Assembly (NCBI GenBank): GCA_015143295.1 | Contig: CM026568.1 | Coordinates: 13,646,607-13,710,606 of the forward strand | Source of the DNA: Tetracentron sinense | Lineage: Eukaryota > Streptophyta > Magnoliopsida > Trochodendrales > Trochodendraceae | Direction of reading: 5' to 3' | DNA: 64,000 nucleotides | The notes under the pieces: generated by a model | What the model saw: the letters and a program-made list of their open reading frames with translations, nothing else | Database searches by the model: none | Told to the model about the DNA's origin: nothing | Shown here: positions 188 to 55,587 of the stretch, in pieces | How positions within the stretch are numbered: position 1 is the first letter of the stretch | How the letters are laid out: each line of letters begins with the position of its first letter | Program-made: the position numbers and the translations under genes

Positions 188-458
188 GGAAAATAATCAC
201 CTCCTCAGTCGGTGACGTGAGGAGGGGCATCTCGGCTCCCTTTTCTTGCGAATTGTCCCCCTTTTGACCTCTTTTAACTGTAGTTAAGATTCAATCCCTC
301 CTAGGGTTCACCCATTTACCCTTGGTTTGTTAAAAAAATAAAATAAAATAAAATATATTTATCCATAGGATTAAAAAAAACTTAACCCATTGAAGGGGCG
401 TCTTTGTGAGAGCGAGGAGCAATAGTTTGCTCCTCGCCGGTGGAGCTAACTATTGCTC
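188..458. mobile_element. MULE-type foldback MITE, terminus type A
   Basis: A 271-bp non-coding element flanked by a perfect 9-bp direct repeat TTTTGATAT (179-187 and 459-467), the target-site length of Mutator-like elements. The left terminus holds a hairpin (CCTCCTC...GAGGAGG, about 198-223). The right terminus holds a second hairpin around GAGCAATAG/CTATTGCTC (418-458). Between them lies a diverged version of the core seen throughout the window (TTAACTGTAGTTAAG, then a CACCC tract). A second copy lies in opposite orientation at 38348-38623. No transposase is encoded, so it would be mobilised in trans. The MULE assignment rests on TSD length and the relationship to the other copies. Confidence 0.75.
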
Positions 459-467
459 TTTTGATAT

Positions 468-703
468 ATATACCTAATCTTCCTTGAGGGTAAGACCCAC
501 AAAGTATGTCAGGTTTCGTATTTCCACATCCTTCCTCACAAGATGATAGTGCGAGCGAGTTAGCGAAATAAAGAGGCGTCCATACTGCCTCTCCACGATT
601 TTCCACGATTTTCTATGTTAGACCAACGAGTTATCATTTTTAAAAAAAAAAATGATGAATTTTGGCTACTAACCCTGGACAACTTATTTAAATAATAAAT
701 CTA
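468..703. other. Unassigned AT-rich spacer
   Basis: Nothing recognisable lies between two MITEs. The reading frame at 382-606 on the minus strand runs across the end of the type A MITE and does not look like a gene. Confidence 0.4.
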
Positions 704-712
704 TTTTCCTAG

Positions 713-2169
713 GGAGTCAAATCATCTTAGGTGATAACCAAATTATCACCCCTACAGGTCACCACGTGTCTCCTTTGACACTTGTGGGGGGTTTTTCTGG
801 GCTACACTTGTCAATAGCTGTTTGGCTGATAGAGCAATTAAAATATTTATACATGTAATACCTGCAAATAATATCACAAAAGAGGGGGCAGGTGTGCACC
901 CTGAAATAAGCTCCGATGATAAAGTCAGTACACATAAAAGAAGATGAATAGTAAAATCATGAGAAGCATTGGAATGCTGAGGCTTGACATTATTCCTTCA
1001 CACTTCTTTTCCTTTTCTCTTAAGGTTCACTTTTAATGGCCTTTCTTCCTCTCGTTTTTTTGTGATTGGTTGATGATTCCCTCCTCTTTTATGATCCTGA
1101 TGCACTGAGTCTCGGGGGTATTTATAGGTTTAAGCTTGGGATGCCCATAGATGACCATCGATGGCTTGGATGACCATGCCATAAGCTATTCACTCATTAC
1201 CAAATCTGTCAGACAGATCTTATGAATGACGTGGCACTCTCGGGAACCTACAATCTTTAAGTCGGTTCTAAGTCGAAAACTCATCTGAGGTGACTAGCAA
1301 TAAATGCTAGGACAGTGTTTTCCACCTAACGTCAGAGACAAATGATCGCCTCTTAAGGATCGGGTCCTACAAGTCGGTCTCGTTGTCGACATCAAGACGA
1401 GTTCGTTATCCACAACGGGGACGATACTACTGTCTTGCTGACTACGAGTTCGTTGACAGAGGACAAAGTTCTCGTTGTGAAGAACACAACGGGTTCGTTG
1501 TCAAAAACACAACGAATACGTATTGCAACAACACAAATGAGCTCGTATCCACCGTTCAACACCGAAAACATGCTTTCTGCCACAACACCAGATTAATTAC
1601 GAATTTTATCCTTTACAACACTCCTTAACCGTGGGTAAGGTTCACCCACCTATTTTTGGTTTTTTTTTTTTTTAATATTAATTCTTTTTTTAAAAATTAA
1701 AAAACTGTTTTTAATATTAAAAAAACTCTAAAAACAGTTTTTTAATTGAGATAAGTACCAATTAGTCGCCCTAAGTCAAAAATATCACCTAAAAGGACAT
1801 GATTTGAAAAGTTTTACCAAATAGGGTATGTAGTCCAATATTACCCTTATCCGTGTTGAGTTTTATATGCGTAGCTAAGGGGTTAATATGTCAAAAGCAT
1901 ACCCTATTAGGTAATAAAAATACAAAGTATACCTTTTTTGATAAATATGTTAACATGCCTTTTTAGGTAATAAAAATGCAAAGCATAACCTTTTCGGTGA
2001 ATCGCAAGAATTAATAGTTTAAAAAAAAAAACCAAAAATAGGTGGGTGAACCCTAGGGGTGTGTGAACCTTACCCACGGTTAAGGGGTGTCAAAGGAGAC
2101 AAGTGGCGACCTCTAGGCGTGATAACCGGATTTGCCAAATCCGGTTATCACCGTAGAGGATTTGACTCC
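713..2169. mobile_element. MULE-type foldback MITE, terminus type B, copy 1 (interrupted)
   Basis: Inverted termini begin GGAGTCAAATC and end GATTTGACTCC, and are flanked by a perfect 9-bp TSD TTTTCCTAG (704-712 and 2170-2178). Just inside each end is a self-complementary hairpin built from GGTGATAACC/GGTTATCACC. The arms carry the shared core (CACGTGTC, TTAACCGTGGGTAAGG, CACCCACC). A solo LTR (783-1617) split the left arm. Without it the element is about 617 bp. The middle (about 1755-2010) contains roughly 250 bp not seen in the shorter copies, with two related motifs around AGGTAATAAAAATACAAAG. Sister copies are at 50090-50420 and 55189-55587. Confidence 0.8.
783..1617 (+). mobile_element. 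Solo LTR nested in a MITE
   Basis: An 835-bp insertion starts TGTGG and ends TTTACA, so it has TG...CA termini. It is flanked by the 5-bp duplication ACACT (778-782 and 1618-1622) and splits the left arm of the surrounding MITE. A TATA-like TATTTATAGG at about 1119-1128 fits an LTR promoter, which puts the element on the plus strand. No primer-binding site, coding domain or second LTR is present, so this is most simply a solo LTR left by recombination between two LTRs. The superfamily (copia or gypsy) cannot be told from the LTR alone. Confidence 0.75.
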
Positions 2170-2178
2170 TTTTCCTAG

Positions 2179-3171
2179 GGATCTAAATGTGTCCTCATAA
2201 AAAGAAAACAAGGGCTACTGTATAATCTCTTGGAAAGAACAAAGAAAGAAGAAATAAATAGAGGTTACAAATTTCGAATAAATGCACACACATCCATTTT
2301 GATTTAAACGGTAACACACATTTATTGAGAGACAATTTAGGCTTGTGGATAGACCAAATGGATCCGCATGAAGAAAACTCCCTATTGGCTTCTTCATCGC
2401 CGCCCCATGAATAATTTTTACATAACCCCCACCCCCGCTGGAAAAAGAACAATTTAAATATGAAACGGAGTAATTACACATTTGCCACCCATAATGTGTG
2501 TAAAAAGGGAGCTCCGCACATGCAGAGCTCCACATGAAAAATAATCTCAAAAAAGAAATACACAAAGATTATGGTCCTTAATTAAACGGCACCAATTCTG
2601 AGCAAGATCACTTTATAGATATTGCAACTAAAAATACCCAGATCCAGGACCATTAGATCGACATTACAATCATTCAAGCCAAAAATCCAGTGACAACATT
2701 GTGGTTGATGTTGATAACACCTCTTCAAATAATGGTTTTGATGCTTATGTCCATATCCTCCTCTATTTCTTTCCTGCATGTTAACCCATTCTCAATCGAT
2801 CTGTTGCTAAGATTGTCTCAAGAACAAAACCAAGAAGCAAAATTGCATTGTTGTGAATAGAAGCAGCAATCAAAGGAAAAGCATGGAGAGAAATATCATA
2901 AGAGAAAAAAATTAAAAACTAAAATTTAAATTATTCAAACGATCTATTTTAAATCTTACCTCAGATTCGATCAACGGACTCCAACAAAAAACCTAAACAC
3001 CAATAGATCTGTGGTTTATTATAATCTCAGAAGCGTATTATAATCTCAAAAGCTTAAGTGCTGAGAATGAAAAGGTATTCTACGAACACCACAAGAAAAA
3101 GCCACAAACGTACCATTAGGGAGGATTCTTTTGGACATGAGAGAGAGAAAAGTGAAATATGGTGAGCCGTG
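2179..3171. other. Unassigned intergenic DNA
   Basis: About 1 kb with several short minus-strand reading frames, the longest at 2215-2565. None has a recognisable domain and they overlap one another in different frames. I see no RNA gene or repeat boundary here. Confidence 0.4.
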
Positions 3172-3425
3172 AGAGCATCTCCAACGGTGAATGCTATATT
3201 GGCTGTGCCAATTCCAAATTTGGCACAACTACAGTGTCAAAATGTCATATTTGGCACAGGCTGCTACAATAGTCTGTGCCAATTCATTTTTTTCACAATC
3301 ACAACCCCTGAGGTCGCCACGTGTCTCTTTTGACACCCCTTAACTTTGGTTAAGATTCACCCACCTCTAGGGTTCACCCACCCCTAAAAATATTTTTTTA
3401 ATATTTAAAAATAGAATTAATATTT
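3172..3425. mobile_element. MITE remnants: GAGCATCTCCAAC terminus and a single core arm
   Basis: The segment opens with GAGCATCTCCAACGG, a terminus common to many plant DNA-transposon MITEs, followed by several TTGGCACA motifs in both orientations. From about 3310 one arm of the shared core follows (GAGGTCGCCACGTGTC, then TTAACTTTGGTTAAGATTC and CACCCACC). No matching opposite arm or TSD was found, so this is a truncated or rearranged copy. Confidence 0.45.
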
Positions 3426-4183
3426 TTTTCTAAAAACCAAGGACAGAAGAATAAAATGGTAAAAAAAATATAATCGTGTGAGGGCAAAATAGTAAAAAAA
3501 TCAAATACAATCGTTCGAGGGTAAAATGGTAAAAAAATTAATCGTTGGAGGACAAAAAGGTAAATACCCAACAAAAGTCATCCTAGCACACGGTTGGAGA
3601 GATAGATGAGGCTGGGGAGAACTTCCAGAGAAATATGTGAGGGCGTAAAGAGAACTTGAGATTGTGGTCTCCTTTTATAGATGCAAGAGAAACATTAAGA
3701 AGAATAAAAAGGAAAGACAGAGAAAAGGGAAGATAGGGAAATAGGACGTCGTTTCAACTTCTCAATTCGCTGGGGGGAAATGCAGAACTCCCGGAAGCAT
3801 AGAGATCGTGGACAGCCGTTTCAAATTCTCAATTCCCTGGGGGTAAATGCAGAAATCCCAGAAGCATAGAGAACGTGGCAGCGTTATCCATTGAAAAAAC
3901 GTAAGGGAGAGAGGTGGTAGTTGTGGGATTAGAACTTGGATAATGCTACCATCACAGTCTTTGATTCGAGAGTCTGTTAGTGGAAAACACATCTCTTTCT
4001 CTTACTCTTACTCTTACGGGAAGACAATGACATATGTTTGGTCCATCAAAAGAAAGTGAAACTAAAAGTGGAACAGTCCTATCAGAATAACCTTGGGTGC
4101 AAGAGTCCAAACGGGAGGGTTGTTCAAACTTTTCTATAGCATCACGTGTCCTCCAACTTTTCTACAGCCACTTTTCATAATAA
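3426..4183. repeat. Short tandem duplications
   Basis: Positions 3426-3560 hold about four degenerate copies of a roughly 45-bp unit built on AAAATGGTAAAAAAAT and AATCGTTGGAGG. Positions 3747-3882 hold a two-copy tandem duplication of about 70 bp (GTTTCAA.TTCTCAATTC...GCATAGAGA.CGTGG). The flanking DNA is unassigned. Confidence 0.55.
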
Positions 4184-12759: not shown

Positions 12760-13650
12760 GCATCCCATAGAGCATTTCCCGCACTACGTGCGCATCTCAG
12801 CTTTCCGTAAGCATTTTCTCGCACTCCGTGCACATCTCAGCTTTCCGTAAGCATTTTCTCGCGCTCCGTACGCATCTCAACTTTCCATAAGCATTTTCTC
12901 GCGCTCAGTGCGCATCTCAGCTTTCTGTAAGCATTTTCCCGTGCTTCGTGCGCATCTCAGCTTTTTGTCAGCATTTTCCTGCGCTCTGTGCACATCTCAG
13001 CTTTCCGTGAGCATTTTCCCGCACTCCGTGCGCATCTTGGCTTTCCGTAAGCCTTTTCCCACGCTCTGTACGCATCTCGGCTTTCCGTAAGCATTTTCTC
13101 GCGCTCCGTGAGCATCTCAGCTTTTCGTAAGCATTTTCCTGCACTCTGTGCGCATCTCAGCTTTCCGTAAGCATTTTCTCGTGCTCCGCGTGCATCTCGG
13201 CTTTCCGTAAGCATTTTCCCGCACTCCGTGCGCATCTCAGCTTTTCGTAAGTATTTTCCCGGGTTCCGTGCACATCTCAACTGTTTGTAAGCATTTCCCC
13301 ACACTTCGTGCACATCCCAGCTTTCCGTAAGCATTTCTCAGCGCTCCGCGCGCATCTCGGCTTTCCGTAAGCATTTTCTCATGCTCCATGCACATCCCAG
13401 CTTTCCGTAAGCATTTCTCCGCGCTCCGTGTGCATCTTGGCTTTCCGTAAGCAATCCCCGCGCTCCGTGCGCATCTCAGCTTTCCGTAAGCATTCCCCGC
13501 GCTCCGTGTGCATCTCGGCTTTCCGTAAGCATTTCCCCGCACTCTGTGCACATCTCTGCTTTCCGTAAGCATTTCCTCATGCTCCATGCGCACCTTAGCT
13601 TTCCGTAAGCATTTTCCCGTGCTCCATGAGCATCCCAACATTCCATATGT
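12760..13650 (+). repeat. 40-bp tandem array, about 22 copies
   Basis: Unit of 40 bp: CTTTCCGTAAGCATTTTCTC followed by GCGCTCCGTGCGCATCTCAG. The CTTTCCGTAA block recurs at 12801, 12841, 12881 and so on at exact 40-bp steps; a few late units are a base or more shorter. Because 40 is not a multiple of three, the minus strand stays open with a 40-residue protein period; these frames (12957-13334, 13237-13641) are artefacts of the array. Copy-to-copy differences are concentrated at CpG sites in the GCGCTCCGTGCG block. Confidence 0.9.
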
Positions 13651-13734
13651 ACACCCTGGTACATCGAGTACACCATTTTAGCATTCCTGTGCACTGCATA
13701 ACACCTGCATACTAAAATTCATATACTTCTCACT

Positions 13735-13905
13735 CAATCCTGTCGGTTGACATCGTAATGAGTTGTCATCCACCCTTTCGTTCAGCCTGACATCACCGAG
13801 CTTGTCATCCACTCTTTTCAGTCCGATTAACATCGTAATGTGTTGTCATCCACCCTCTTACCACCCATCTGGCTGACATCGGAATGGTTGTCACCCATCA
13901 TTTCA
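13735..13905 (+). repeat. About 42-bp tandem repeat, left block
   Basis: About four diverged copies of a unit with CTGACATCG, then TTGTCATCCACC. The same unit reappears at 14986-15130 on the far side of the 41-bp array, so the 41-bp array seems to have expanded inside it. Confidence 0.7.
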
Positions 13906-14985
13906 ACTTTAACATTTCAAAAGCAATCCCTCCTGTGAAGAGGCTAAAAGCAATATTTCAAAATCGATCCCTCCTGTGAAGAGGTTAAAAGCAACATTTC
14001 AAAAGCGATCCCTCCTGTGAAGAAGCTAAAAGCAACATTTCAAAATCGATCCCTCCTGTGAAGAGATTAAAAGCAACATTTCAAAAGCGATCCCTCCTGT
14101 GAAGAGGCTAAAAGTAACATTTCAAAATCGATCCCTCCTGTAAAGAGGTTAAAAGCAACACTTCAAAATCGATCCCTCTTGTGAAGAGGCTCAAAGCAAC
14201 ACTTCAAAAGCGATCCCTCCCGTGAAGAGGCTAAAAGCAACACTTCAAAAGCGATCCCTCCTGTGAAGAGACTAAAAGCAACATTTCAAAATCGATCCCT
14301 CCTGTGAAGAGGTTAAAAGCAACACTTCAAAAGCGATCCCTCCTGTGAAGAGGCTAAAAGCAACATTTCAAAAGCGATCCCTCCTGTGAAGAGGCTAAAA
14401 GCAACATTTCAAAATCGATCCCTCCTGTGAAGAGATTAAAAGCAACATTTCAAAAGTGATCCCTCCTGTGAAGAGGCTAAAAGCAACATTTCAAAAGCGA
14501 TCCCCCATGTGAAGAGGCTAAAAGCAACATTTCAAAATCGATCCCTCCTATGAAGAGGTTAAAAGCAACATTTCAAAAGCGATCCCTCCTGTGAAGAGGC
14601 TAAAAGCAACATTTCAAAAGCGATCCCTCCTGTGAAGAGGTTAAAAGCAACTCTTCAAAATCGATCCCTCCTGTGAAGAGGCTAAAAGCAACATTTTAAA
14701 AGCGATCCCTCCTGTGAAGAGGCTAAAAGCAACATTTCAAAATCGATCCCTCCTGTGAAGAGGTTAAAAGCAACATTTCAAAAGCGATCCCTCCTGTGAA
14801 GAGACTAAAAGCAACATTTCAAAATCGATCCCTCCTGTGAAGAGGCTAAAAGCAACACGTCAAAATCGATCCCTCCTGTGAAGAGGTTAAAAGCAACACA
14901 GATCCCTCCTATGAAGAGGCTAAAAGCAACATTTCAAAATCAATCTTTCCTGTGAAGAGACTAAAAGCACATTTCAATCGGGCTG
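13906..14985 (+). repeat. 41-bp tandem array, about 26 copies, with alternating variants
   Basis: Unit AAAAGCAACATTTCAAAA, then (G/T)CGATCCCTCCTGTGAAGAGG(C/T)T. Two variants alternate over much of the array: one with AAGCGATCCC and GAGGCTA, the other with AATCGATCCC and GAGGTTA. This gives an 82-bp higher-order period, interrupted at a few places by two of the same kind in a row. Homogeneity is high, so expansion looks recent. Confidence 0.9.
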
Positions 14986-15130
14986 ACATCGCCTAGCTTG
15001 TCATCCACCATTTCAATCTGGCTGACATCGCCAAGCTTGTCGTCCGCCCTGCCAATCTGGTTGACATCGCCGAGCTTGTCATCCACCCTTTCAATCTGGC
15101 TGACCCTAAGCTTGTCATCCACCTTTTTTC
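14986..15130 (+). repeat. About 42-bp tandem repeat, right block
   Basis: Four copies of TCTGGCTGACATCGCC, then AAGCTTGTCATCCACC, more uniform than the left block at 13735-13905. The last copy is a few bases short. Confidence 0.75.
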
Positions 15131-17575: not shown

Positions 17576-18728
17576 GTTATATAAGAGCTAATCGGCTCTC
17601 AGGATGCTCTGTATCACCTAACATTAATCTGAAGTTTCTCACTGAAGGCTTTAATGAGCAACCTTAATCTAAGTCGTTCAAATTAAATCTAATGAGCAAC
17701 CTTAATCTTAGTCGTTCAAATTAAATCTAACAGTTGTAAGAGAACCTATATAAAGCCTAAAATTTAGCTATTATGTGCAGCCACCAAGCCCCATACTGAG
17801 CAAGTGAGCGCGCCTCCTTGAGGCCCGATTTATGAAGGAAATCTACGACTGCATGCAAAAGTCCCCTCTTACTTTCTCTGTCCTTGCTGTGTGTCAGCTC
17901 CAAGAAGTTGCTTGCTTGGTGACTCGCACTTTGCCCGTCTAGCCCTGGAGCTGGCCTGGACAATAGGAATGCACACAACAATAGGAGCAAACATGACAAA
18001 CAACAAAGTATTATTATAGTTAAAACAGATTCTGCCAAAAAAAACTGAAACAGATTCATCTTCTAAAAGTCTATAGCTGAAACAGATTCAACAACAAAAA
18101 AATACCAGAAAGAGATTCATCTTCTAAAAGTGTATAAACCAATGTCCAGCTTGTAACACTTGGAAAAGTATCATCTTGAATACATAATCTTGCTATACAT
18201 TATTTGTGAAATCTTCTACATACTCTTCCAACCTTCATAAACTTAGACATGAACTACAAACCACCCCTTAAGTTAGTACATATCAGCATTGTCAGAGGAA
18301 CACGGGGCAATTGTAAAAGAGATCAGCCAAGCCAATCACCAACTTGTCTGAATTTTGCAATGTTGGTTTTGACGGATTTAATAGAAAAAGTAGGTAGGGT
18401 TGGACGGTTACAATTTCAAAGGGTTTAAACTGAGAAATGGACACCCCACTCCTTGTAACTGACCTTCACAGCTCCTCTCGGTGGGGTTGGACTGTTACAC
18501 TTTCAAATGGTTTAAATTGAGAAATGGACACCCCACTCTTTGTAACTGCCCTTTACACCTCCTCCCTAAGATCCGTGGCATAGAGTAGAGGAGAGAGGTG
18601 GGTCCGTTACTTGCAAGTTGAAGAGTAGAGGAGACGAAACGGGAATTTTCATTTGATAAGCGCACACCCCTCCACTGCCATCCACAGTAGAGAGGTAGTG
18701 ATTAAAGGGTAGATCTGGATAAGGCACA
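17576..18728. other. Unassigned DNA flanking the Tat-like element
   Basis: A 100-residue minus-strand frame (17757-18059) has a strongly hydrophobic stretch near its start (SCLLLLLCAFLL) but no domain I recognise; it could be a captured fragment or chance. At 18646-18720 is a block (TTTTCATTTGATAAG...CACTGCCATCCACAGTAGAG) repeated directly at about 19303-19355. The segment may be Helitron body. Confidence 0.35.
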
Positions 18729-19260
<532 letters not shown>

Positions 19261-19695
19261 TGAGCCATCAGATAAAGATGAGAGAGGTGGTGATTAAAGG
19301 GTAGAGAGTTTTCATTTGATAAGTGCACACCCCCTTCCACTGCCATCCACAGTAGAGTAGAGAGATAAAAGAGGAGATATGAGACCATTAAAGGGTAGAG
19401 ATGAAGATGAGAGAGGTGGTACTGTTTCGGATTAAGTGCACCCCTTCCCTTTCGTAACTGCCATAATAATTAAGTGAAATAATAAAGGGGTAGATTGAGG
19501 GGGAGGTGAATGAAGAGATTTTGGAATTGTTTGTGAAGGGCAGATGAATGAGAGAAAAGAGGTGGGTCGCACTTATTGATTTTAGCATCCTTACTTGACC
19601 TCACAAATGAAGAACAATCCTGCATAACATCAATAGGAAAACCTATATGCCATTCAGAAAAACAACTTAACTGTGTTTTATAATAGTAGTATAGA
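19261..19695 (-). mobile_element. Helitron 5' part (minus strand)
   Basis: The right end, read on the minus strand, is TCTATACTACTATTATAAAA followed by CACAGTT, ending at 19695 with host T at 19696. This matches the 5' TC end of the Helitron family whose other copies end at 34341, 36944, 40543 and 42581. The upstream block (CTCACAAATGAAGA, then a GGCAT/ATGG motif) is also shared. The 3' partner may be at 6223 or 4184. Confidence 0.5.
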
Positions 19696-19709
19696 TAGAT
19701 AGATAGTTA

Positions 19710-20362
19710 CTAGCAGAGAACCCGTGCGATGTACAGGTAATAATTTAAGAAGATCTTTGATTAGATAATATTATTTATTTATTTAAATATTAAGTAATGT
19801 ATTTTTAAATATTTAATAATTTTTTTAATAATATAAGGTTTTTTATTTGATAGACATTAATAGATTTTATAATAATAATTTATTATTATTATAATAATAT
19901 TTAATGAAAAATCATAAGTTTCTTAATATTAAATTTAAATTAATACGTTAACAAAAAAACTTAAATTAATACACCCCAAGAGTTGAAGATAAGAGAGGAC
20001 TCTACAATAGTGGAGATAGAGAGGGCTGTAGGATGAGATAGTGGGTCTCAAATTTGTAAGAGTTTGAGATCAGAAGGGACTCTACAATAGTAGAGTTAGA
20101 GAGGGCTCTAGGATGAGGTAGTGGGTCCCAAACTTGAACGGTCAAGATTAAACTCTTATCACAATCTCCTAAAATTCCTCTAATGATTTTTGAATTGAGA
20201 GAGAGACGTGTGAGAGAGAGAGAAAGAGTTAACGGTTGAGATTAAAGAAGGGTGTCACATGGCATTCTTAAAATAGAACTCATAAGATTCCTGCGATTAA
20301 AGATTAGAGGGCAAAGAGAGGGAATTAGGTGGCACTTATTTCTTTAAATTATAGTATATGTA
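19710..20362 (-). mobile_element. Helitron (minus strand)
   Basis: CTAG at 19710-19713 and hairpin CCCGTGC...GTACAGG at 19721-19737 give the 3' end. The 5' end lies near TATACTATAATTTAAAGAAATAAG (minus strand, around 20340-20362), blurred by TA repeats. The first about 460 bp is an inverted copy of 20935-21341. No coding sequence. Confidence 0.6.
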
Positions 20363-20370
20363 TATATATA

Positions 20371-20815
20371 CTAGTAGAGACCCCGTGCGATGCACGGGTG
20401 TGAATAAAATAAAATTAAAAAACTCTACATCTCTCTCTATCTCTCTTATCACAATCTCCTAAAATTTCTCTCTACATTCTCTGTCTCTCTCTCCCTATCC
20501 TTCTTATCTCTCTCTTTATCCCTTATCATAATCTCCTAAAATCTCTATCTACATTCTCTATCTATCCTTATCTCTATCTCTCTTATCACAATCTCCTAAA
20601 ATATTTCCAATGATCTTTAAATTGTGAAGAAAACGTATGTATCCCCTAAAATCTCTCCAATAGTTTTTGAATTGAGAGGGAGATGTGTGTGAGAGAAAGA
20701 GTTAACAGTTGAGATTTAAAAAAGTGTGCCACGTGGCATCCTTAAAATAGAATTCATAGGATTCCTAAGATTGAAGATTAGGGAGCAAAGAGAAGGGGTT
20801 AGGTGGCATCTCTCT
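20371..20815 (-). mobile_element. Helitron (minus strand)
   Basis: CTAG at 20371-20374 followed by the 18-bp hairpin CCCCGTGCGATGCACGGG (20381-20398). The body contains repeated TATC-TCTC-TTATCACAATCTCCTAAAAT motifs. The right end shares GGTTAGGTGGCA with the previous element. It abuts or overlaps the start of the next Helitron. Confidence 0.6.
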
Positions 20816-23184: not shown

Positions 23185-24970
23185 GGAGAAAATATATTTA
23201 CACCCCCTGAGGTTTGATGAAAATACGCATAGACCCTCTTGGTTTTCAAAAAACACATCCTTACTTTTTAAAATAATGGCACTTAAACCCCTCCATCAGT
23301 TGACCGTTAGTCAACTCACAGAAATACTTATGTATATTGATGTCATGTGATAAAGTACATAAAATTCCAAAACTATCTCTCAAATTTTCAGAAAACACTA
23401 ATCTTACTCCAAAACACTATTTATTTAATATTTAAAAATCTGGTTCTCACCCATGAGGTCGCCATGTGTCCCTTTTGACACCCCATAACCGTGGTTAAGA
23501 TTCACCCACCCATCCTTGTTTTTTTAAAATATTAATTCTTTTGAAAATTAAAAAAAAAATTAGTTTTTTTAATATTAAAAACAGATTTTTAATATCACCC
23601 CTTGAGGTCGCCACGAGTCCCTTTTGACACCCCTAAACCATGGTTAAGATTCACCCACCCATCCTTGGTTTTTTTTTTTAAATATTAATTCTTTTTTGAA
23701 AATTAAAAAAAAATTAGAGTTTTTTTAATATTAAAAACAGTTTTTTAATACCATCCCTTGAGGTCGCCACGTGTCCCTTTTGACATCCTTAACTGTGGTT
23801 AAGATTCACGCACCCATCCTTGGCTTTTTTTTTAAAATATTAATTCATTTTTTAAAATGAAAAAAAATAGAGTTTTTTAATATCACCCCTTGAGGTCGTC
23901 ACGTGCCCCTTTTGACACCCGTTAACCGTGGTTAAGATTCACCCACCAATCCTTGTTTTTTTATACATATTAATTTTTTTGAAAATTAAAAAAAAAAAAA
24001 GAGTTTTTTTAATATTAGAAACAGATTTTTAATATCAACCCTTGAGGTCGCCACGTGTCCCTTTTGACACCCCTTAACCGTGGTTAAGATTCATCCACCC
24101 ATCCTTGGTTTTGTTTTTTCAAAATATTAATTCATTTTTGAAAATTAAGGGGTGAATCTTAACCACGGTTAAGGGGTGTCAAAAGGGACACGTGGTGACC
24201 TCAAGGGGTGACGGTTAAGGGGTGTCAAAAGGGACATGGGGGCACCTCAACTGGTGATATTTAAAAACTGTTTTTAATATTAAAAAAACTCTAATTTTTT
24301 TAAAAAATTTTCAAAAATGAATTAATATTTTTTTAATAAAAGCCAAGGATGGGTGGGTGAATCTTAACCACGGTTAAGGGGTGTCAAAAGCGACACGTGG
24401 CGACCTCAAGGGGTGATATTAAAAAAGTGTTTTTAATATTAAAAAAAACGCTTTTTTTTTTACTTTCAAAAAAAATTAATATGTAAAAAAAAAAACAAGG
24501 TTAGGTGGGTGAATCTTAACCACGGTTAAGGGGTGTCAAAAGGGACACGTGACGACCTCAAGGGGTGATATTAAAAAACTCTATTTTTTTTTTTAATTTT
24601 CAAAAATGAATTAATATTTTAAAAAAAAGTCCAGGATGGGTGGGTGAATCTTAACCACGGTTTAGGAGTGTCAAAAGGGACACGTGGCAACCTCATGAGT
24701 GAGAATCGGATTTTTAAATATTAAATAAATAGTGGTTTGGAGCAAGAATAGTGTTTTCTAAAAATTAGAGGAGCAAATTTGAAATTTTATATATATCATC
24801 GCATGACATTAGCATACATCATCATTTCTGAGAGTTGACTAACGGTCAACTGATGGAGGGGGTCTAAGTGCATTATTTTAAAAAGTAAGGGTACTTAATG
24901 TATCTTTTGAAAATTGAGGAGGTCTATGTATATTTTCGTCAAACCTCAGGAGTGTTAATATATTTTCTCC
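23185..24970. mobile_element. Giant foldback MULE with multiple nested core arms
   Basis: A 1786-bp palindromic element with ends GGAGAAAATATAT/ATATTTTCTCC and a perfect 9-bp TSD ATGATTTTA (23176-23184 and 24971-24979). The outer about 250 bp on each side are inverted copies, including GTTGACCGTTAGTCAAC hairpins. Inside, the left half holds five forward copies of a roughly 145-bp unit starting GAGGTCGCCACGTGTCCC (about 23456, 23605, 23760, 23903, 24045) and the right half holds about five reversed copies (about 24160-24690). Each unit includes CTTAACCGTGGTTAAG and CACCCACCCATCCTTG. No coding capacity. Confidence 0.8.
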
Positions 24971-25310: not shown

Positions 25311-27313
25311 AGAATGTAAAAATAAAATAAAATAAAATAATAATTTATCATAAAATTATATTTAAAAAATAAAGAAAAAAATATTTTCCAACATAAATGT
25401 AAAATGTTTCTTAGTTAATTTTAGACCATGACCAAGATGAATGTAATTTTCTAGGACTTTGACTAGAAAACCCCAAGCAGAACCGCTCAACCAATGATCA
25501 CATTATATGGGGTAGACCTAAATAAGAAAAGATCCCATTCTCTCACCACGTTATCTTCTATAGGCGCCAAAACTGTAATAGCAAATAGAGAACCTATGCT
25601 GATGTTGAAGTCATGAAACTGGTTGAAGAAGATGATGGCCTTTTCTTCCTTTGGATTGATCACAATGAACTGACCGACCCGGATCTTGACATGCATGTTG
25701 GATTTTATACCACTACCACCCAATGCAGGGAATACTATTTGGGCTGAAATGGTGTTGGAAACCTTACCAACTGTCAATATATTGGCTTACACTCGTCTCC
25801 ACAATCTCGATCTTCTCATAAGTCACCTAAAATCCCTCCAATGCAAGGAGAATAAAATATCTCAATCACCTAAGAGTTGCAGTGCACGTAGAAAGGTTTT
25901 AAAGGGAAGAAGAGTTGCAACACTTGAGAGTTAACAATCACAGTACTAACTGTCTTTGCGTTTTTTACATGCCCTCTAAGAATCAATGAATTAAATTATT
26001 AAAAAAACAATAAGCAAGCAGTGAGATGTCATTTATATTCCAAAGACTTCTCCAACTTTAGAAGAGTCCTAAAAAACCCATCAAGTGGTTAGGATACACT
26101 CACCCCCTAGGATTAAGCAATCTGACCATGGTTTTTAGAAGAAAAAAAAATTATTAATTTTAATGTAATTAAACCTAACCAAGGTTTAGAAGGTGTTAAA
26201 AGGGACACTGGACACTGCGGTCAGCTTAGAAGACTCTGAAAGAAATTCCACATTAGCCCACAGAACCTGAGGGATAGCCAGAGACTTTTGGATTAAAGGA
26301 ATAATGTTAAAAGTGTCCTCAATTGCATGGAGTACTAAACAACGTAACTTTTTTTTTTTTTTGGTAAACTACTAAACAACTGATATAAACCCAAAAGCCA
26401 TTATTTTCTTTTATCCAATCCCTCAGCAGTCAAAACAAAGTTCTGGATGGAGTAAACAACTGATCATAAACACATAAAGGTTTAGTCTTTCAGATTCAAT
26501 TTGGCACGTTTTCAAAGAAACTCCATTATAGTGTTTTGCCTTGCTTAAGTAAACAACCCTTTTTGGGTTGCCCCAAACAGCCTTCCATTCTTTCTTCACC
26601 TTTTCATGGTGTCTTTCTTCACTACCCCATTTGCTTTTGCTAATCTGAAAGTAACACATTGGTATTACAAAAAAAAAAAGAGTTAAAACACGTTGGTCCC
26701 ATGCACTACCTCTCAATCGAAAGCTTAATTTCTATGCAAGCATTCATCTCTCTCCCTCGTAGTACCCACCCATTGAATTTGAAAAAATAATAGACACTGC
26801 AAAACAGTTTCCAATTCTTTTCTTTTTTTTGCACTTAATGGATTCATGCTCTACTTTCTCTGCCGATGAAATTTATTTTTCATCTCTTTTCAACCATATA
26901 TCTCAATGGACTTCACATCTGGCTTCATAGTCTCCTCCTTTGGCACCATATATAACTGTAAGCACCCCAACATCCATCTTTTCTTTCATGAACTAGTCTA
27001 CCTTAATTTGCAATCTCCAGCAATCAGAATCTCCACGTGAAGTACTTGTCACTGCTTAGATCCACGCAGTGCCATTTGTCATTATTCTCTTCTCTCGGCT
27101 CCTCTCGCCATTGGAGTGGTTGTTGGGAATTGAGATCTTCATTCCAAAACCAATTGAAGTCTCTGCAAGTGTGGAAATTAATTGTGATTTTTTTATCGAC
27201 GATTGCTGAATTGGTTTTGAGTCCTCGCCCTGTCGGTGAGTGGGCGTATCAGTCTTGACGATAAAGTTATGATTCTCGCAGGAAAATCATGCTAAAGAGA
27301 AGGGATCACGGAA
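25311..27313. other. Helitron interior with possible captured gene pieces
   Basis: A 96-residue minus-strand frame (25487-25777) and a 97-residue one (26423-26716, with an AG acceptor-like CTTTCAG before ISKSKWGSEERHHEKVKKEW) look more protein-like than average but match nothing I know. At 26080-26230 there is a diverged core arm of the MULE-MITE family (AACCTAACCAAGGTTTAGAA and GGGACACTGG). At 26945 is a TATA-like CATATATAAC, followed at about 27234 by a donor-like CGGTGAGTG, which could be a captured promoter and 5' exon. All of this is tentative. Confidence 0.35.
26344..26369 (-). mobile_element. Micro-retroposon: tail-only insertion
   Basis: Only GTAAC, a run of T and GGTAAAC lie between two copies of TACTAAACAAC (26333-26343 and 26370-26380). 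On the minus strand this is GTTTACC plus poly-A, the same 3' end as the retroposon at 22867-23122. It appears to be an almost completely 5'-truncated target-primed insertion. Confidence 0.6.
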
Positions 27314-34814: not shown

Positions 34815-36796
34815 GAGTGTAGATCCTATACGGTTCATGCTTGTCCAATTGAGTCCGGTAGCTACAGAAAAGCAACATGCATCCATATAATTTGCGGGAT
34901 ATGAAAAGTTAACGGAGGTTCCGTTTGTCTTTGTTTTAACAATTAAAATATAATTTTAATAAATTTCAAAAAAAATATAATTAAAAAAGAGAGGAAACTT
35001 AAGTAATGAGAGAAGCACTTTTCTTCTTCTCCTTGAATCTTGCACCTTCCTCAACCTAGCACCTTCCTCTTCCTTCTCCAGAAATCTTTCCTATATTTCA
35101 TTTGCCCTCTGCAATTTCCAGCAAAACAGTGTGCCATATAGAAGCTGAGGTGCTTTGAGTCTCGTTTCCATTTGTTCTCTGCAGTTTCCAGCAAAACACT
35201 GTAGTTTCTAGCAAAACGTAGGCAATCTTCATCCCTCCAACCATAGAGGATCTGTAGTTGGTCTCCAAATCACATGCCCTTACAAGTGCAAGAGATGCTT
35301 TGTGACTCTCTTCCTATTGGGTCAACTTTCTCTCTTAAATCTCAATATATCTCCATTTCTCTCCCATGGCCTACAACGGAGATACCCATCAAAATCTTAC
35401 CCAAACTCACCGGACCACCAGTTTCCAATGGTCTAGTCGCTTGAAAATATTGTCACAACGGTGGAATGTACCATCAGTTCATCTAGGAGGGAAGATGTGT
35501 CGACAGAGATGAAGATGGTTTTTAGCTTGAGTGAGGTGGCTGGTGCATGTTAAAGAAGATGAAGGAGTACAATCGTTCGATGGTGAAGGACCTTATTGAA
35601 GCCTGTGCAATATTCGAGTTCGTACAACAAAGGATCATGATGGATGCCTATTTCGTGGTTCCTGGCATGGGAATCTCCTTTGCCAGCTTCCCGGCATGAG
35701 ATCAAACCATCCTCAACTCAAGAAATAGAAAATAAAAAATTTAATGTCATCTTTCTTTCTTTTTTTTCAATCTTTTTTGTGGCTTTTTTTGTTTAATTTG
35801 TTTACTTAATATTGGAAAGAGAAATAAATGTAATAATCTTTCTTGTTAGTCTTCTATACTGAAGCAGATTTAGATCTTAGATCTACTGCCATGGTTGACT
35901 TTAATAAGTTTGTTCACCGAGGAATACGGTTTTTAGCTCTGTTCAAGTGTTTGGATGGGGTGAGATGGGTAGGACGGCGCATGATAATGAAATTTTATCT
36001 GAACTCTCTATGTGCTAGAGAACATTATTTTTTTTTTGGAATCAAATCCTCTACCCCTTTAGGTGCTTTGGATAAAGATTTTTGATATGTTCTTTTCTTT
36101 TACAACATATCATTTGCAATTTTGCAAAGAATCATATATAGCTAAGATAAAAACAATAAAAATGGCTCCGTATGCAACAAGTAAGGCTAAAAAAAAATTT
36201 ACAGACAAACAAATCCAAGGAGAAAAAAATAATAAACACCAAGTCAAATCAAAATCCATCAACAATACAAACCTAAGTTCATCTACCATCTTACCAATAT
36301 AGTTGAAAGGAAAAAAAAGCATCCCAAAAAATCTCAGATCAAAACCTATTGCTATCCAAAACAATGTTTCAATGCAATTAAATCCAACTAAACAGAGCAT
36401 CCTCATACTCTACCTTGCTTCAATCGTTTGGTTCAGTTTAACGTTTCTTGAATGCTAAGCATCCTCTTTGCCACTGTTTTGCTGGAAATGCAGAGAACAA
36501 ATGGAATAGAGAGATGAAGAATTCTCTAGAATGAAGATGAAGAAGGTGCAAAGTTCGAGGAGGAAGGTGCAAGGCTCTAGGAGAAGAAGAAAAGTACTTC
36601 TCTCATTGCTTACGTTTCCTCTCTTTTTTTATCATATTTTTTTGAAATTTATTAAAATTATATTTTAATTGTTAAAACAAAGACAAACGGAACCTCTGTT
36701 AACTTTTCATATCCCGCCAATTATAAGGACGCGTATTGCTTTTCTATAGCTACCGGACTCAACCGGACAAGCACGAACCATAGAGGATCTACACTC
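34815..36796. mobile_element. Non-autonomous MULE with about 300-bp TIRs
   Basis: 1982 bp. Long inverted ends start GAGTGTAGATCC and extend inward about 300 bp (34815-35120 and 36470-36796). The flanking 9-mers are TGTAAATAA (34806-34814) and CGTAAATAA (36797-36805), matching in 8 of 9. No transposase. The interior (35120-36470) has higher-GC stretches that may be captured host sequence, including a 50-codon plus-strand frame at about 35549-35701 (KEYNRSMVKDLIEACAIFEF, then VQQRIMMDAYFV) that I cannot identify. Long TIRs and the interior fit a Pack-MULE-like element. Confidence 0.8.
35549..35701 (+). pseudogene. Unidentified captured coding fragment inside a MULE
   Basis: A 50-codon frame beginning MLKKMKEYNRSMVKDLIEAC and continuing AIFEFVQQRIMMDAYFVVPG before a stop after FASFPA. 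It looks like real protein (amphipathic helix, then a compact end), but I do not recognise the family. An upstream stop and the absence of continuing exons suggest it is a captured exon rather than a gene. Confidence 0.3.
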
Positions 36797-38347: not shown

Positions 38348-38623
38348 GACCAATAGTTCACTCCATTGGCGAGGAGCAAACTATTGCTCCTCTCTTTAAC
38401 AAAGCCACCCCTTTACCTGCCATAAACCCGAGTTTAATTCTTTTAACCCTATAGTTAAATATTTTTTATTTTATTTTTATAAATACTAAGGGTAGATGAG
38501 TGAACCTTAGGGGTAAGCGAAGCTTAACCACAGTTATAAGGAGTTAACAGAGAGAGACGTGTCATGAAAAGGGGACCGAGACACCCCTCCACGCGTCACC
38601 GACCGAGGAGGTGATTATTTTCC
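38348..38623. mobile_element. MULE-type foldback MITE, type A, copy 2 (inverted)
   Basis: The reverse-orientation partner of 188-458. It starts GACCAATAG, has the GCGAGGAGCAAACTATTGCTCC hairpin region and a core with GTTAACAGAGAG and TTAACCACAGTTAT, and ends GGAGGTGATTATTTTCC. Both flanks are A-rich (CAAAAAAAA and AAAAAACAA), so the TSD is not decisive. Confidence 0.75.
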
Positions 38624-49788: not shown

Positions 49789-50089
49789 GCTTTCACACAA
49801 TGCTGCCATGGGGAAACAAAAAAAATCCAAACTCTAATATGCTAACATTAGTAAAATTAGGAGCATCATTTTACTCTAAATACCATGAAATATTGATTAT
49901 TTTGCTTTAAAAAGAATTATATTTATTCAACCAACTGAAATAATAAGCAGGTTCAACTTATATCTATAACCTGTATAAAAAGAGGGTAAGTTTCACTAGC
50001 ATCCAAAAGTTTTCGTCGAACTTTTCTATAACCTATATTACCCTCGGTTCTATCACGCTGTCATTTTTTTCTTTAATGAACCAAATTAT
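49789..50089. other. Unassigned DNA
   Basis: No gene. The block AAAAAGAGGGTAAGTTTCAC with TTTTCGTCGAACTTTTC near 49977-50023 echoes 46840-46905. Confidence 0.35.
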
Positions 50090-50420
50090 CTACGGTGACA
50101 ATAGGATTTGGCAAATCTGGTTATCACCCCTAGAGGTTGCCACGTGTCTCCTTTGACACCCCTTAACCGTGGGTAAGGTTCACCCACCCATCCTTGGTTT
50201 TTTTTTTCAAATATTAATTCTTTTTTAAAATTAAAAAAACTCTAAAAACTGTTTTTTAATTTTAAAAAAAGAATTAATATTTGAAAAAAAAAAAACCAAG
50301 GATGGGTGGGTGAACCCTAGGGCTGGGTGAATCTTACCCACTGTTAAGGGGTGTCAAAGGAGACACGTGGCAACCTCTAGGGGTGATAACCGGATTTGCC
50401 AAATCCGGTTATCACCGTAG
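50090..50420. mobile_element. MULE-type foldback MITE, type B, copy 2
   Basis: About 331 bp from CTACGGTGACAATAGG to GGTTATCACCGTAG. Both ends carry the GGTGATAACCGG/CCGGTTATCACC hairpin. Both arms carry the complete core (CACGTGTC, CCTTAACCGTGGGTAAGG, CACCCACCCATCC) and meet in an A/T-rich centre. Outer bases beyond CTACGG are diverged and no TSD was resolved. Confidence 0.8.
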
Positions 50421-51336
50421 AATTCAGGAAATGTCATTCTCTCAATTTTTAACATCTCCATTCCCTAAAATGTCCTTCAATATGCTAAACGATAACATTA
50501 ACATGTCTTCCGTCTCGTATCTATTCCGTAAATAAAAAGTAACATGCCCATCGCTTTTTTTTTTTTTTTGGTTAGAACATGCCCATCACTCACCGCCTTC
50601 GTTCTTTTACTTATCATTAATCTTTATCCTTAACCAATACAACAATTACCCAAAAAAAAACCAACACAGCAGTTGGCAAAGAAATCGTGGGGCCCATTGT
50701 CTAAGACTAAGACTCTAGAGACCTCTTCTTGGTTCTCACTCATCTCACCTCAGGCCGTCCGATCAAATCTGATGTGTGCAATTGTCGCATTGATCTTGGT
50801 TCAGTTAAATGAAGTTAATTTAATGATTTATGAAATCCATTCATGATTATTTGATAAATAATTTGAATTTCAATGATTTTTGAAATCAACTCATTCTTTT
50901 TCTTTTTTACAGGCACCGATTAACTATCTCTCAGATTTTTCATTGTCTTTTAGGGTTTTAAAACCAGTATACGTGTTGTTAGTGGCTGCTGGTGATTCTT
51001 TTTGAATTTTTGGTAGCTGAGGTGGTTTAGTTACTTTAGTTAAGAGATTATAGCTTTTCTATTTTTATTTTTATTTTCTGTTAAATTTGGGGTATTTTTT
51101 TTAAAATCAGGTTTAGTGTTCTTTACAAAACCTTAGATTTTCTTATTTGTTCCTAAACAAGAAAGATACTGCATAAACCCTTCTTCTAAACATAAACAAA
51201 TTGGTTGAAAGTACTGGTTCCAACTCCCAAGCTGTAGTGAAGGGGTTCAAAATGAGATTGGATCACAGACAATCGCAATTGAATTTCAGGAGAGTTCAGT
51301 TGTACCCACGGGTCAATACGTGTCCCTTCTAATCCT
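50421..51336. other. Unassigned DNA
   Basis: Contains the tail-only retroposon at 50556-50575. The rest, including 50690-51300, has no recognised gene or repeat. Confidence 0.4.
50556..50575 (-). mobile_element. Micro-retroposon: tail-only insertion
   Basis: A T-run plus GGTTAG (minus strand CTAACC plus poly-A) lies between AACATGCCCATCGCT (50541-50555) and AACATGCCCATCACT (50576-50590), one mismatch in 15. It matches the tail of the retroposon at 49671-49779. Confidence 0.6.
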
Positions 51337-53322: not shown

Positions 53323-53666
53323 TAAGGTGGCGTTTGGATAGACTTTTCAAAGAAGAAAACTACTTCCTAGGAGTTACTTCGTAGGAAGTAATTCTTGAGG
53401 AAGTTTGACAAAATTGTTTCGAGGGATAAAATAATGTTTGGTTTGCACAACTTAAAAATGACTTTTAAAAACTCAAAAATCAATTTTGTGTTTGGTATGC
53501 ACTTACAAAAAGTAATTTTTAAAAGTTTTATATATGGTATCAAATTGATATATGATTATTTTCATATATAAACTTTTATAGAATTTGTGATGCTCATAGA
53601 TATAAAAGATGAGAAAAAAAAACATGTTTTATGCATGTACATGCACTAGTAGGTAAAATAGAAATT

Positions 53667-53853
53667 ACTACACACCGTGGACCTAACCCAATGGTAAAAC
53701 ATCCCCTTACTAGGAGGGAGGTTCTGGGATCTATCTCGAGGGGTGCTTCATAACCCTTAGCCAAGCTTCAAATGTTAGGAATTAACCCACTAACCTCTAG
53801 AACAGATAACCCAAGTTAACCTCAAAGTTGAGTTATACCGAAAAAAAAAAAAA
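53667..53853 (+). mobile_element. tRNA-derived SINE-like copy 2 with A-tail
   Basis: ACCTAACCCAATGGTAAAAC (A-box region), then CTTACTAGGAGGGAGG and TTCTGGGATCTATCTCGAGG (B-box region), AGAACAGATAACCCAAG, and a terminal A-run (about 53841-53853) before TA repeats. The same order appears at 40962-41121 (minus) and 44380-44490 (minus). Confidence 0.55.
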
Positions 53854-54070
53854 TATATATATATATATAGGTATTCATGATTTTTCTAATATGTTGGTGT
53901 TGGTTCTTTGTAACCTTAGGATACACAGATCATTGTTGTTGAGTTTCACTCAATAGCTCATAACCTAGACTCTAAAATAAGTGTGCCCTCTCCGTCTAAC
54001 CATGAATTAAAAGTACAAGCCCTATATCCTCCCAAAACCAAATTATTTATAAACTTGTAACCCTCCATAG

Positions 54071-54387
54071 TTATTATCGGACTTAGGGTGTCCAGTTACA
54101 TCCCTGAGGTTGTTATGTGTCCCTTTTGATACCCCTTAATTGTGGTTAAGATTCACCCACCCCACTAGGTTCACCCACCTATCCTTGATTTTTAGGGAAA
54201 AAATAATTTTTTTAACCCTAACTAAAATTCACTAACTCTTAGGGTTAATTTTTTAAAAATATTTTTTAAAGATAGGTGGGTGAACCCTAGGGGTGGGTGA
54301 ATCTTAACTACGGTTAAGGTGTTTCAAAAGGGATACGCGACAACCTCAAGAGCATAACTAAACTCCCCCCGAGTCTGGTTATAATGG
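54071..54387. mobile_element. MULE-type foldback MITE, further terminus type
   Basis: Arms (TTATTATCGGACTTAGGG left, GAGTCTGGTTATAA right) enclose two core copies: TGTGTCCCTTTTGATACCCC with TTAATTGTGGTTAAG on the left, and the reverse with TTAACTACGGTTAAGG on the right, including CACCCACC tracts. The CACGTG site is mutated in both arms. No TSD resolved. Confidence 0.6.
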
Positions 54388-54417
54388 TAGAAGATTAGAA
54401 ATCTTATTTTATAATAG

Positions 54418-54908
54418 GCAATGGATTACCTCTAGTAGATGCTTGAGATGCCATCTCGAGCACCACTCTTCAGTTGACGCATGGGAGGCATTTAACTAGA
54501 GAGTGATAACATGCATTACACATTCCGTTGAGTGGTACACGCACATCTCCCAAACTCACCATGTATGCTCTTTGACAGCCATTAACTGTGGTTAAGTAGA
54601 GTAACCTTAGTTTTTATAAAAATATCTTAAAATCATTAACCACATGAACAAATGAAATCATAACCAAGGTTAATTTTTAAATTTTTTTTACATAACAAAG
54701 GTTAGATTATTTAACCCTAAGTATGAGCGAATATTAACCATGGTTAAATGAATGTCAAAGATGACATCTGGCGAGCTTCGTAGGTGTGCATGTACCACTC
54801 AACAGGATGTGCAATGCATGTTATCACTCTCTAGTTAAATTCCTCCCACGCGTCAAGAGTGGTGCCCGAGATGAGATCTTGGCATCAGCCAGAGTTAACC
54901 CGTTTCAT
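54418..54908. mobile_element. MULE-type foldback MITE with 9-bp TSD, further terminus type
   Basis: Flanked by TTATAATAG (54409-54417 and 54909-54917). The outer arms share GAGATGGCATCTCGAGCACC-like, CACTCTT, TTTAACTAGAGAGTGATAAC and ATGCATTACACAT blocks in inverted order. The inner core is a diverged TTAACTGTGGTTAAG / TTAACCATGGTTAAA. No coding sequence. Confidence 0.75.
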
Positions 54909-54917
54909 TTATAATAG

Positions 54918-55179
54918 AGCCCTGAGATGAGGAACCCAATGTCCTCTTCTAAGCTGACCAAGTGTCCCTGTGTCCCTTTTAACACCTCTTTAATCATGGT
55001 TAAGCTTAACTAAATTGGAACTAATAATTTCATTTTTTTTGTTTTTTTAAACCGTGGTTAGATATAGGGGTTTAGTGAATCTAACCACAGTTGATGGGTT
55101 GTAAAATGTGGGCATGGACCAATGAGATCCCGGGGTCACTTCAAAGTTGACCCAGGGTCCGTTTTCCATTTCCCTTTAT
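54918..55179. mobile_element. Diverged MULE-MITE remnant
   Basis: Two opposed core-like segments (GTGTCCCTTTTAACACCTCT with TTAATCATGGTTAAG; and TAACCACAGTTGATGGGTTG) within outer sequence containing GACCAAGTGTCC and GTTGACCCAGGGTCC. It fills exactly the gap between two other MITEs. Boundaries are uncertain. Confidence 0.45.
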
Positions 55180-55188
55180 AATACTATA

Positions 55189-55587
55189 GGATTCAAATCC
55201 TCTACGGTGATAATCGGATTTGGCAAATCCGGTTATCACCCTTTAAGGTGGCCACGTGTCTCCCTTGACACCCCTTAACTGTGGTTCAGATTCACCCACC
55301 CCTAAGGTTCACCCACCCATCCTTGGTTTTTAGAAATAAATATTAATTATATTTTTTAAAATTAAAAAACTATTTTTTATGATTTTTTAGGATTTTTTTT
55401 AATATTAAAATATTTTTTAAAAATAGAATTATTACTTTTTTTTCTAAAAACCAAGGATGAGTGGGTGAACCCTAGGAGTGGGTGAATCTGAACCACAGTT
55501 AAGGGGTGTCAAAAGGGACACGTGGCCACCTCAAAGGGTGATAACCGGATTTGCCCAATCAGGTTTTCACCGTAGAGGATTTGCTCC
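55189..55587. mobile_element. MULE-type foldback MITE, type B, copy 3
   Basis: 399 bp, ends GGATTCAAATCCTCTACGG and CCGTAGAGGATTTGCTCC, perfect 9-bp TSD AATACTATA (55180-55188 and 55588-55596). Each end holds the GGTGATAA...TTATCACC hairpin. The arms contain CCACGTGTC, TTAACTGTGGTTCAG and CACCCACC. This is the best defined copy of the type. Confidence 0.88.

Follow-up and report, generated by a model that had tools for sequence, protein, structure and literature searches.

Short foldback elements of the Mutator-like element (MULE) type, with modular terminal inverted repeats (TIRs) that form hairpins, are reportedly represented in Arabidopsis by FARE. In the passages devoted to it, MuTAnT of Medicago (PMC4486113) is a single family of two subfamilies with TA-repeat targets. 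Tandem long-TIR MULEs have been described from tomato, rice, maize and Arabidopsis (Ferguson and Jiang 2012, PMC3310237), and Galileo of Drosophila is a member of the P superfamily with 7-bp target duplications (PMC3573991). A literature search of limited coverage returned no design closer than tandem-TIR MULEs, MuTAnT and Galileo to the one described here, which was found in a 64,000-nucleotide stretch of the genome of the plant Tetracentron sinense (the window; GenBank assembly GCA_015143295.1, contig CM026568.1, positions 13,646,607 to 13,710,606): miniature inverted-repeat transposable elements (MITEs) that share one inner block under several unrelated ends.

We propose, with moderate confidence, that these elements form one lineage of non-autonomous foldback MULE MITEs, in which a conserved block is combined with changeable hairpin ends, ends have been replaced, and copies have also spread as cargo. 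An arm would run from a G-rich tip, often through a palindromic hairpin of 20-36 bp, to the 57-bp block and an AT-rich tract, followed by the mirror arm. The block, conserved as sequence, would most likely be the binding place of the transposase or another protein; the tip-side hairpin would be free to change its sequence, the palindrome being kept by hairpin-templated copying or by structural constraint. In some lineages the end would have been replaced at the hairpin, the new end becoming common to both arms, probably via inverted duplication or inter-arm conversion, and then multiplying. Arms and whole elements would finally have been swept into unrelated elements (a PIF/Harbinger-type carrier and elements with GAGCATCTCCAAC tips) and copied with them.

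One inner block under several unrelated ends

The shared block is 57 bp long (consensus TGAGGTCGCCACGTGTCCCTTTTGACACCCCTTAACCGTGGTTAAGATTCACCCACC) and is carried by thirteen elements of the window (E1 to E13, Table 1). A profile of 57 positions, started from four arms and refined by iteration over the window, gave 30 matches at 20-68 bits, corresponding to 29 arms, one of them split by an insert; 50 Markov windows (3.2 Mb) used as a control gave 7 hits at E<=10, the best at 11.5 bits. Twelve loci had been listed in the first-pass annotation as sharing the block, and each of the twelve has at least one profile match; a thirteenth arm, absent from that list, lies at 58060-58099 (30.5 bits). The same annotation had spelled the block out as a triad of literal sequences, which holds as a core recognized by the profile but not as a universal exact form: there are 15 exact occurrences of CACGTGTC and 19 of CACCCACC in the window, and neither is found in the arms at 188, 26080, 38348, 54418 and 54918. 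Profile matches are present in both arms of eight of the thirteen elements, and the block lies inside the inverted-repeat arms, 41-55 bp from the tip in end types A, B, C and D (counted from 18723 in type D).

Among 21 arms, the 76-bp core is similar in 178 of the 210 pairs and the outer segment in 24 (at most 1 of 400 shuffles), which bears out the claim of one homologous block with many unrelated termini. Comparison of the outer segments with shuffles, together with inspection by eye, gave end classes A to G in the window; between classes there is a single similar pair, E7R-E10R, which is weak, and type F shares half of hairpin A. Thirty-one loci on contig C1, cut at the first listed places of the palindrome CTTAACCNNGGTTAAG, add classes H and J and a second example of I, the type of E3. 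By best BLAST class, the 72 arms above 14 bits in this sample comprise 21 inner array units, 13 H, 11 A, 8 F, 5 D, 4 J, 3 C and 1 I, with 6 in no class.

Several of these ends form families of their own in the genome. For each arm the best 40 of 955-3453 first-look candidates were scored, so that the counts are lower bounds. The type D end with its core (123-bp query) has at least 39 other matches at 94-97%, covering at least query positions 6-117 and spread over some small contigs and 20 of the large ones (C1-C24); 6 of 40 matches start exactly at GGCACAGG, and the tip is supported by the arm ends of E4 and by locus L027, in which GTTTTAAAA borders both GGCACAGGATTC and its partner. At least 39 other matches were likewise found for the type B end (82-92%) and for the type F end (85-88%, with hits in inverted pairs separated by 1.6-4.7 kb). 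The end of E10 recurs at 13 other places of the carrier described below (91-93%) and at least at further places at 79-90%. Hairpin A with its tail has 1130 exact copies genome-wide, as opposed to none for the reversed control.

The core itself is abundant. Eleven arbitrary 10-kb stretches (110 kb) contain five core arms, located in 2 of the 11, which extrapolates to approximately 50,000 arms in the whole genome (Poisson range about 17,000-120,000, wider if the arms are clustered); the 1.16-Gb assembly thus probably holds tens of thousands of copies. The palindrome CTTAACCNNGGTTAAG occurs at 4592 places, against 14 for its reversed control, but not every occurrence represents this core: 18 of the 31 loci on C1 have a core above 14 bits and 13 do not, the form CTTAACCGCGGTTAAG being present in 9 of the latter. 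Four core-less loci (L013, L014, L015 and L025) belong to a different repeat, with CTTAACCGCGGTTAAG (GTGG in L015) followed by CTTAACCATGGTTAAG about 295 bp further on. Exact core patterns had no match in collections of viral contigs and genome contigs.

In their size and flanks the elements combine features of several groups. They are short, non-coding and present in high copy number with terminal inverted repeats, as MITEs are; compact window elements with both ends set measure 258-544 bp. They share with MULEs, whose target-site duplications (TSDs) measure 9-11 bp, a 9-bp duplication and long TIRs (about 100 bp or more). Arm lengths are 101 bp (50089), 168 bp (55194), 178 bp (18723) and 267 bp (23259), and the arms of E4, E5, E8 and E12 are 84-93% complementary over these 101-267 bp; these four have the whole-element inverted repeat and internally repetitive arms of foldback elements, which type B does not, inverted arms being weak in types B and C. 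Perfect 9-bp TSDs flank six elements (E1, E2, E5, E10, E11 and E12), two more than had been claimed, and perfect 9-bp duplications recur in genome copies at L008 (TTTGTTAAA), L016 (TTTTATATT) and L027. In a blind test that combined a 9-bp repeat with a tip score of at least 15, and that used somewhat wider flanks for the window elements than for random placements, 23 of 2000 random placements passed, as did three of the thirteen elements at their true ends (713, 23185 and 55189). The elements at 188, 54417 and 54917 have weaker tips, below the score threshold, and a pass of E4 was an artefact within its hairpin.

Hairpins, end replacement and arrays

The first-pass annotation had described several termini as self-complementary hairpins. 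Folding agrees for the GGTGATAACC and GAACTCGAGAGA types, which are strong, but not for CCTCCTC at 188 taken alone (99 of 300 shuffles); this hairpin is not significant in the sister end at 38623 either, and it is significant in the copy at L016 (2 of 300). Tested singly, 11 of 22 end segments are palindromic at no more than 3 of 300 shuffles. Significant hairpins are found in all four type A segments, at the other end of the two type B elements and in L016, in type C at L031, in two of three type D ends, and in type G. When arms are folded with 75-nt flanks, 49 of 107 reach a stem score of at least 8, compared with 8-11 in three shuffles, and many of the 49 are AT-rich stems within arrays.

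Hairpin A changes its sequence while staying a palindrome. In an alignment of 15 related arms from window and genome, picked by eye, 89% of positions are paired and changes on both sides occur at 10 of 17 pairs; two-sided changes fill 23 of 254 cells, as opposed to a shuffled mean of 6.9, none of 500 shuffles reaching 23, and every slid register scores far lower. A compensated change, noted by eye, is also present in type D (E4 compared with L004). The core palindrome CTTAACCGTGGTTAAG shows one-sided changes over 109 aligned hits, with five two-sided exceptions among the types listed. What is maintained thus differs: palindromic pairing in the hairpin, wherever there is one, and the sequence itself in the core. 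Palindromes are known to be kept up by template switching between arms (PMC8604942), and such switching is an alternative to selection for structure.

Conservation of the block as sequence might also reflect a host-related function instead of transposition. The palindrome and CACGTGTC are both conserved in this manner, the block is also retained where different machinery mobilizes the element, and its CACGTG motif is a G-box, a possible transcription factor site. However, recent copying alone would give conservation among copies of a mobile family, and we consider a host function improbable.

At least one end, that of E4, was replaced and has multiplied as a family. In the core tree its two arms pair together, and the group that encloses them (98/97) also contains hairpin-A arms from 713 and 50090; a tree holding five hairpin-A arms together without E4 (the two arms of E9 being left out) is rejected by the approximately unbiased (AU) test with p-AU 0.018, a value that is optimistic, the group having been chosen after the sequences were seen. 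The core of E4 scores 91-114 of 152 against those of E2R and E8, whereas the outer modules share nothing significant; the outer 48 bp of E4 match no other class, and E4 retains the core-adjacent spacer CCCCTAGAGGTCACC, so that only the more external part differs. Taken with the family matches of the D end, this upholds the suggestion that the elements exchange ends, for at least one end.

The same comparison bears on the possibility that nothing was exchanged and that the ends are simply fast-evolving parts of one ancient family, diverged beyond recognition. Compensated variants do show hairpin A drifting (GGATTTGG, GGATGTGG, GGTTTTGG and GGACTCGAG), and the old elements E6, E9, E10, E11 and E13 have diverged cores as well. 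Yet in E4 close cores are joined to outer modules without significant similarity, hairpin-A cores do not form a group that excludes it, and no intermediates between hairpins A and D were noticed by eye among the arms inspected from window and genome. Divergence without exchange is therefore quite unlikely, although somewhat less so than a host function.

The arrays suggest how a new end could reach the other arm. In E5 five core units are in forward and five in reverse orientation. A deletion is common to forward unit c and reverse unit j, and TCGTCACG with the spacer ACATATTAATTTTTTT is common to d and i. These features hint at the inverted copying of a tandem array, an event that would carry a new end across. 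By eye, some junctions fall close to the centre of a palindrome. In type F the sequence continues from AAATC, just beyond the middle of hairpin A, and in E5 and L007 CTTAACCG is joined to TCACCCC. Palindromic arrays of roughly 130-160-bp core units, with a maximum of five to seven per side, were seen in E5, L005, L007 and L062, which form one family. The 4.7-kb type F element at L062 was considered as an autonomous member and rejected, its longest stop-to-stop frames being 83-100 aa; its extra length is sequence absent from the window element, and no perfect 9-bp duplication was found around it.

Core-bearing elements as cargo

E9 to E12 lie inside a larger element, the carrier, which ends in GGTGGCGTTTGGATAGACTT and its inverted partner with TAA on either side. 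Of at least 13 other places that match the E12 arm at 97-99%, 12 were examined. All 12 have E11 and at least part of E12, and 11 match the window over approximately 1.06 kb at 96-99%, stopping at the right tip of the carrier; the copy at L057 stops within E12. The left parts of three copies match the window leftwards from E10 at 97-98%, and one of these reaches the tip. In 11 copies, not counting another, less clear end in L058, the 3 bp to the right of the carrier end are TTA (7), TAA (2), TAT (1) and GAA (1); the copy on C12, the only other one read at both ends, has TAT/TAT. The window carrier itself has a 3-bp TWA target duplication (TAA/TAA). This flank pattern is PIF/Harbinger-like, and the carrier resembles PIF/Harbinger (Tourist-like) elements in the TTA/TAA duplication and the G-rich TIR with TTTGG; unlike those, it bears four MULE-like MITEs. 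MULE-like MITEs have thus been multiplied as cargo of another superfamily. Four recent independent insertions into a hot spot were considered for E9-E12 and rejected, as the four are nested in one carrier and copied with it; their duplications, including TTTATAATA common to E10 and E11, therefore date from the ancestral carrier.

Type H, with GAGCATCTCCAAC tips, has a TTA duplication that is perfect in two of five elements tested and imperfect in three; type J at L003 has GGGGCGGAGCC tips and, by eye, a 12-bp repeat; and the junction of a core arm with a GAGCATCTCCAAC-type element, as in E3, is found again at L003. The insert that splits the left arm of E2 (713) appears to be a nested element resembling a solo long terminal repeat (LTR).

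On one alternative account, nesting explains everything: an ancestral core MITE inserted into, or was captured by, unrelated hosts, and it is the hosts that own the ends. Nesting holds for E9-E12 in the carrier, for type H, for the E3/L003 junction and for the solo-LTR-like insert in E2, and type F, by eye, retains only the inner half of hairpin A outside its outermost cores. Against it, types A and D have 9-bp duplications that directly adjoin the tips, some 55 bp away from the core, and no duplication was seen around the core itself, where no systematic search was made. E4 keeps CCCCTAGAGGTCACC beside the core and changes only its outer module, so that type D counters nesting as a complete account, which we regard as unlikely. 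The first-pass view of interchangeable ends thus stands with respect to the many unrelated termini, whereas E9-E12, the GAGCATCTCCAAC elements and the split arm at 713 are cases of nesting or cargo. Likewise, a core always fused to one terminus by nesting, which that annotation named as its own refutation, is what we find for H, I and E9-E12 but not for D and, we think, not for A, B, E and F either.

The remainder of the window is plant-like DNA with 64% A+T. Open reading frames at 27.5-33.6 kb are read as a Copia-type polyprotein. Another long inverted-repeat element, which lacks the core, occupies 19687-21362 (arms of approximately 450-480 bp, 77%); further inverted repeats lie at 34815-36796 (about 320-bp arms at 87%, about 1.3 kb between them) and at 60317-63726 (about 0.9-kb arms at 80%, each containing 48-bp tandem repeats). 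Minisatellites with 39-41-bp units in up to 26 copies extend over 12771-15127.

Table 1. Core-bearing elements of the window and features associated with them; the locus start under which an end class was assigned is given in parentheses
Feature	Position	Strand	End class	Structure	Flanking duplication
E1	188..458		B (188)	one end GGAAAATAATCACCTCCTC; other end hairpin GAGGAGCAAACTATTGCTCCTC, core below threshold there	TTTTGATAT
E2	713..2169		A (713)	hairpin GGTGATAACCGGATTTGG	TTTTCCTAG
Insert in left arm of E2	783..1617			835 bp, TG...CA; bounds by eye	ACACT at 778-782 and 1618-1622
E3	3309..3445	+	I	lone core arm joined to GAGCATCTCCAAC-type element	
E4	18723..19266		D (18729)	tip GGCACAGGATTC, hairpin GAACTCGAGAGAATCTCTCGAGTTC	decayed, ATCTGGATAA/ATCAGATAA
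Plastid psbC (CP43) fragment, centre of E4	18924..19091	+		best E 1.4e-30	
E5	23185..24970		F (23185)	tip GGAGAAAATATATT; palindromic array of ten core units	ATGATTTTA
E6	26080..26250		C (26080)	decayed, ends approximate; right end akin to type C	
E7	38348..38623		B (38348)		
E8	50089..50421		A (50090)		no clean TSD
Carrier, putative PIF/Harbinger type, non-autonomous	53326..55947			2.6 kb; TIR GGTG(G/T)CGTTTGGATAGACTT; holds E9-E12	TAA/TAA
E9	54054..54402		A, degenerate (54071)	inside carrier; ends approximate	
E10	54417..54907		E (54418)	inside carrier	TTTATAATA
E11	54917..55174		C (54918)	inside carrier	TTTATAATA, common to E10
E12	55189..55587		A (55189)	inside carrier	AATACTATA
E13	58060..58165	-	G (58060)	single arm, hairpin CAGTACGTTGTCTAACGTACTG	

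Recognition of the elements and comparison with known systems

A conserved interior opposed to variable ends had been presented as the reverse of the usual MITE pattern. This does not hold, since the block is part of each long TIR and a conserved binding site within the TIR is normal for Mutator, in which MURA binds a conserved motif of about 32 bp (PMC3310237, in the part concerned with Mutator). The core is a candidate sub-terminal recognition signal for the transposase, which the first-pass annotation had suggested alongside a possible role in replication, and a MULE is suggested as the mover because of the 9-bp duplications only. In some families the modules at the two ends are unrelated (B in E1 and E7; C in E11 and L031), which means that in B and C a single hairpin sequence cannot serve both ends for recognition; the second end of type B has no core match, which weakens this argument.

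MULE transposase domains are abundant in the genome (150 scored of 1282 first-look candidates, many in frames of more than 700 aa). No transposase could be tied to any terminus: the ends of the elements were found on neither of the two MULE-domain loci examined. One, L045 (3407-8815), has an 838-aa frame and repeated inverted arms of its own, without the core; several repeats similar to its left inverted arm are present, all of them on the right side. The other, L046, was rejected as an autonomous partner: there the core arms are directed away from the transposase frame, and an old copy of the carrier is among them.

Besides the late choice of the AU group and the choice by eye of the hairpin-A arms, several observations weigh against a single MULE lineage with a conserved block and changeable hairpins. 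A clean 9-bp duplication is missing in seven of the thirteen window elements, and in five the core is matched in a single arm (E1 at 188, E3 at 3310, E6 at 26080, E7 at 38348 and E13 at 58060), both type B elements among them. The distance from tip to block is 128-275 bp in types E and F, and these types have no significant hairpin by the shuffle test; nor have E7R, E11L, E11R, E4R (by folding), L031R and L020. Further pair types in hairpin A, one of five measures, are unexceptional (69 of 500). In E5 the raw scores of units b, e and h leave their pairing ambiguous, h agreeing best with b. The core persists in elements with 3-bp duplications, in which it cannot serve as the mover's signal. Finally, none of the listed places of A, D, B and F arms is, by eye, closer than 10 kb to any of the 150 MULE-domain places listed; two listed E10-arm matches on C7 do adjoin such places, and the one examined is L046.

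A bolder version of the proposed lineage, which we put forward only tentatively and think unlikely as a whole, is that sequence recognition has moved inward to the 57-bp block, leaving the end as a replaceable, structure-only hairpin cap that is continually rewritten. Such rewriting would proceed through compensated drift, replacement of whole modules and the fitting of a different cap to each end of an element, and one lineage could then found many apparently unrelated MITE families. The contrast between a hairpin kept as structure and a core kept as sequence offers a direct test.

MITE families are usually defined by their ends, so that annotation based on ends would here separate families that have an inner block in common, and as cargo a single block has passed between superfamilies. 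This has a bearing on the origin of MITE families, on the family counts of annotation pipelines and on what MULE transposases need for recognition.

E4 has captured a gene fragment between long TIRs, as a Pack-MULE does; unlike in Pack-MULEs, the fragment is plastid DNA, in the one copy examined. It comprises approximately 165 bp of psbC coding sequence in a single open frame, between MULE-type MITE arms. In the features that the relevant passages of the respective papers describe, the elements resemble MuTAnT as short foldback MULE-type elements whose TIR modules fold as hairpins; a shared core over unrelated ends does not appear in the passages on MuTAnT (PMC4486113). With Galileo they share long, internally repetitive TIRs, TIR extension, a foldback architecture and chimeric copies, there ascribed to exchange between copies; unlike Galileo chimeras with non-matching flanks, the copy with a replaced end at L027 has a perfect 9-bp duplication (PMC3573991). 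Tandem-TIR MULEs are likewise non-autonomous, with 9-11 bp duplications, internal tandem TIRs (compare E5, L005 and L007) and possible acquisition of TIR sequence (PMC3310237). Their external and internal TIRs are alike, however, whereas here one core stands under several unrelated outer modules, in arrays that reach five to seven units per side.

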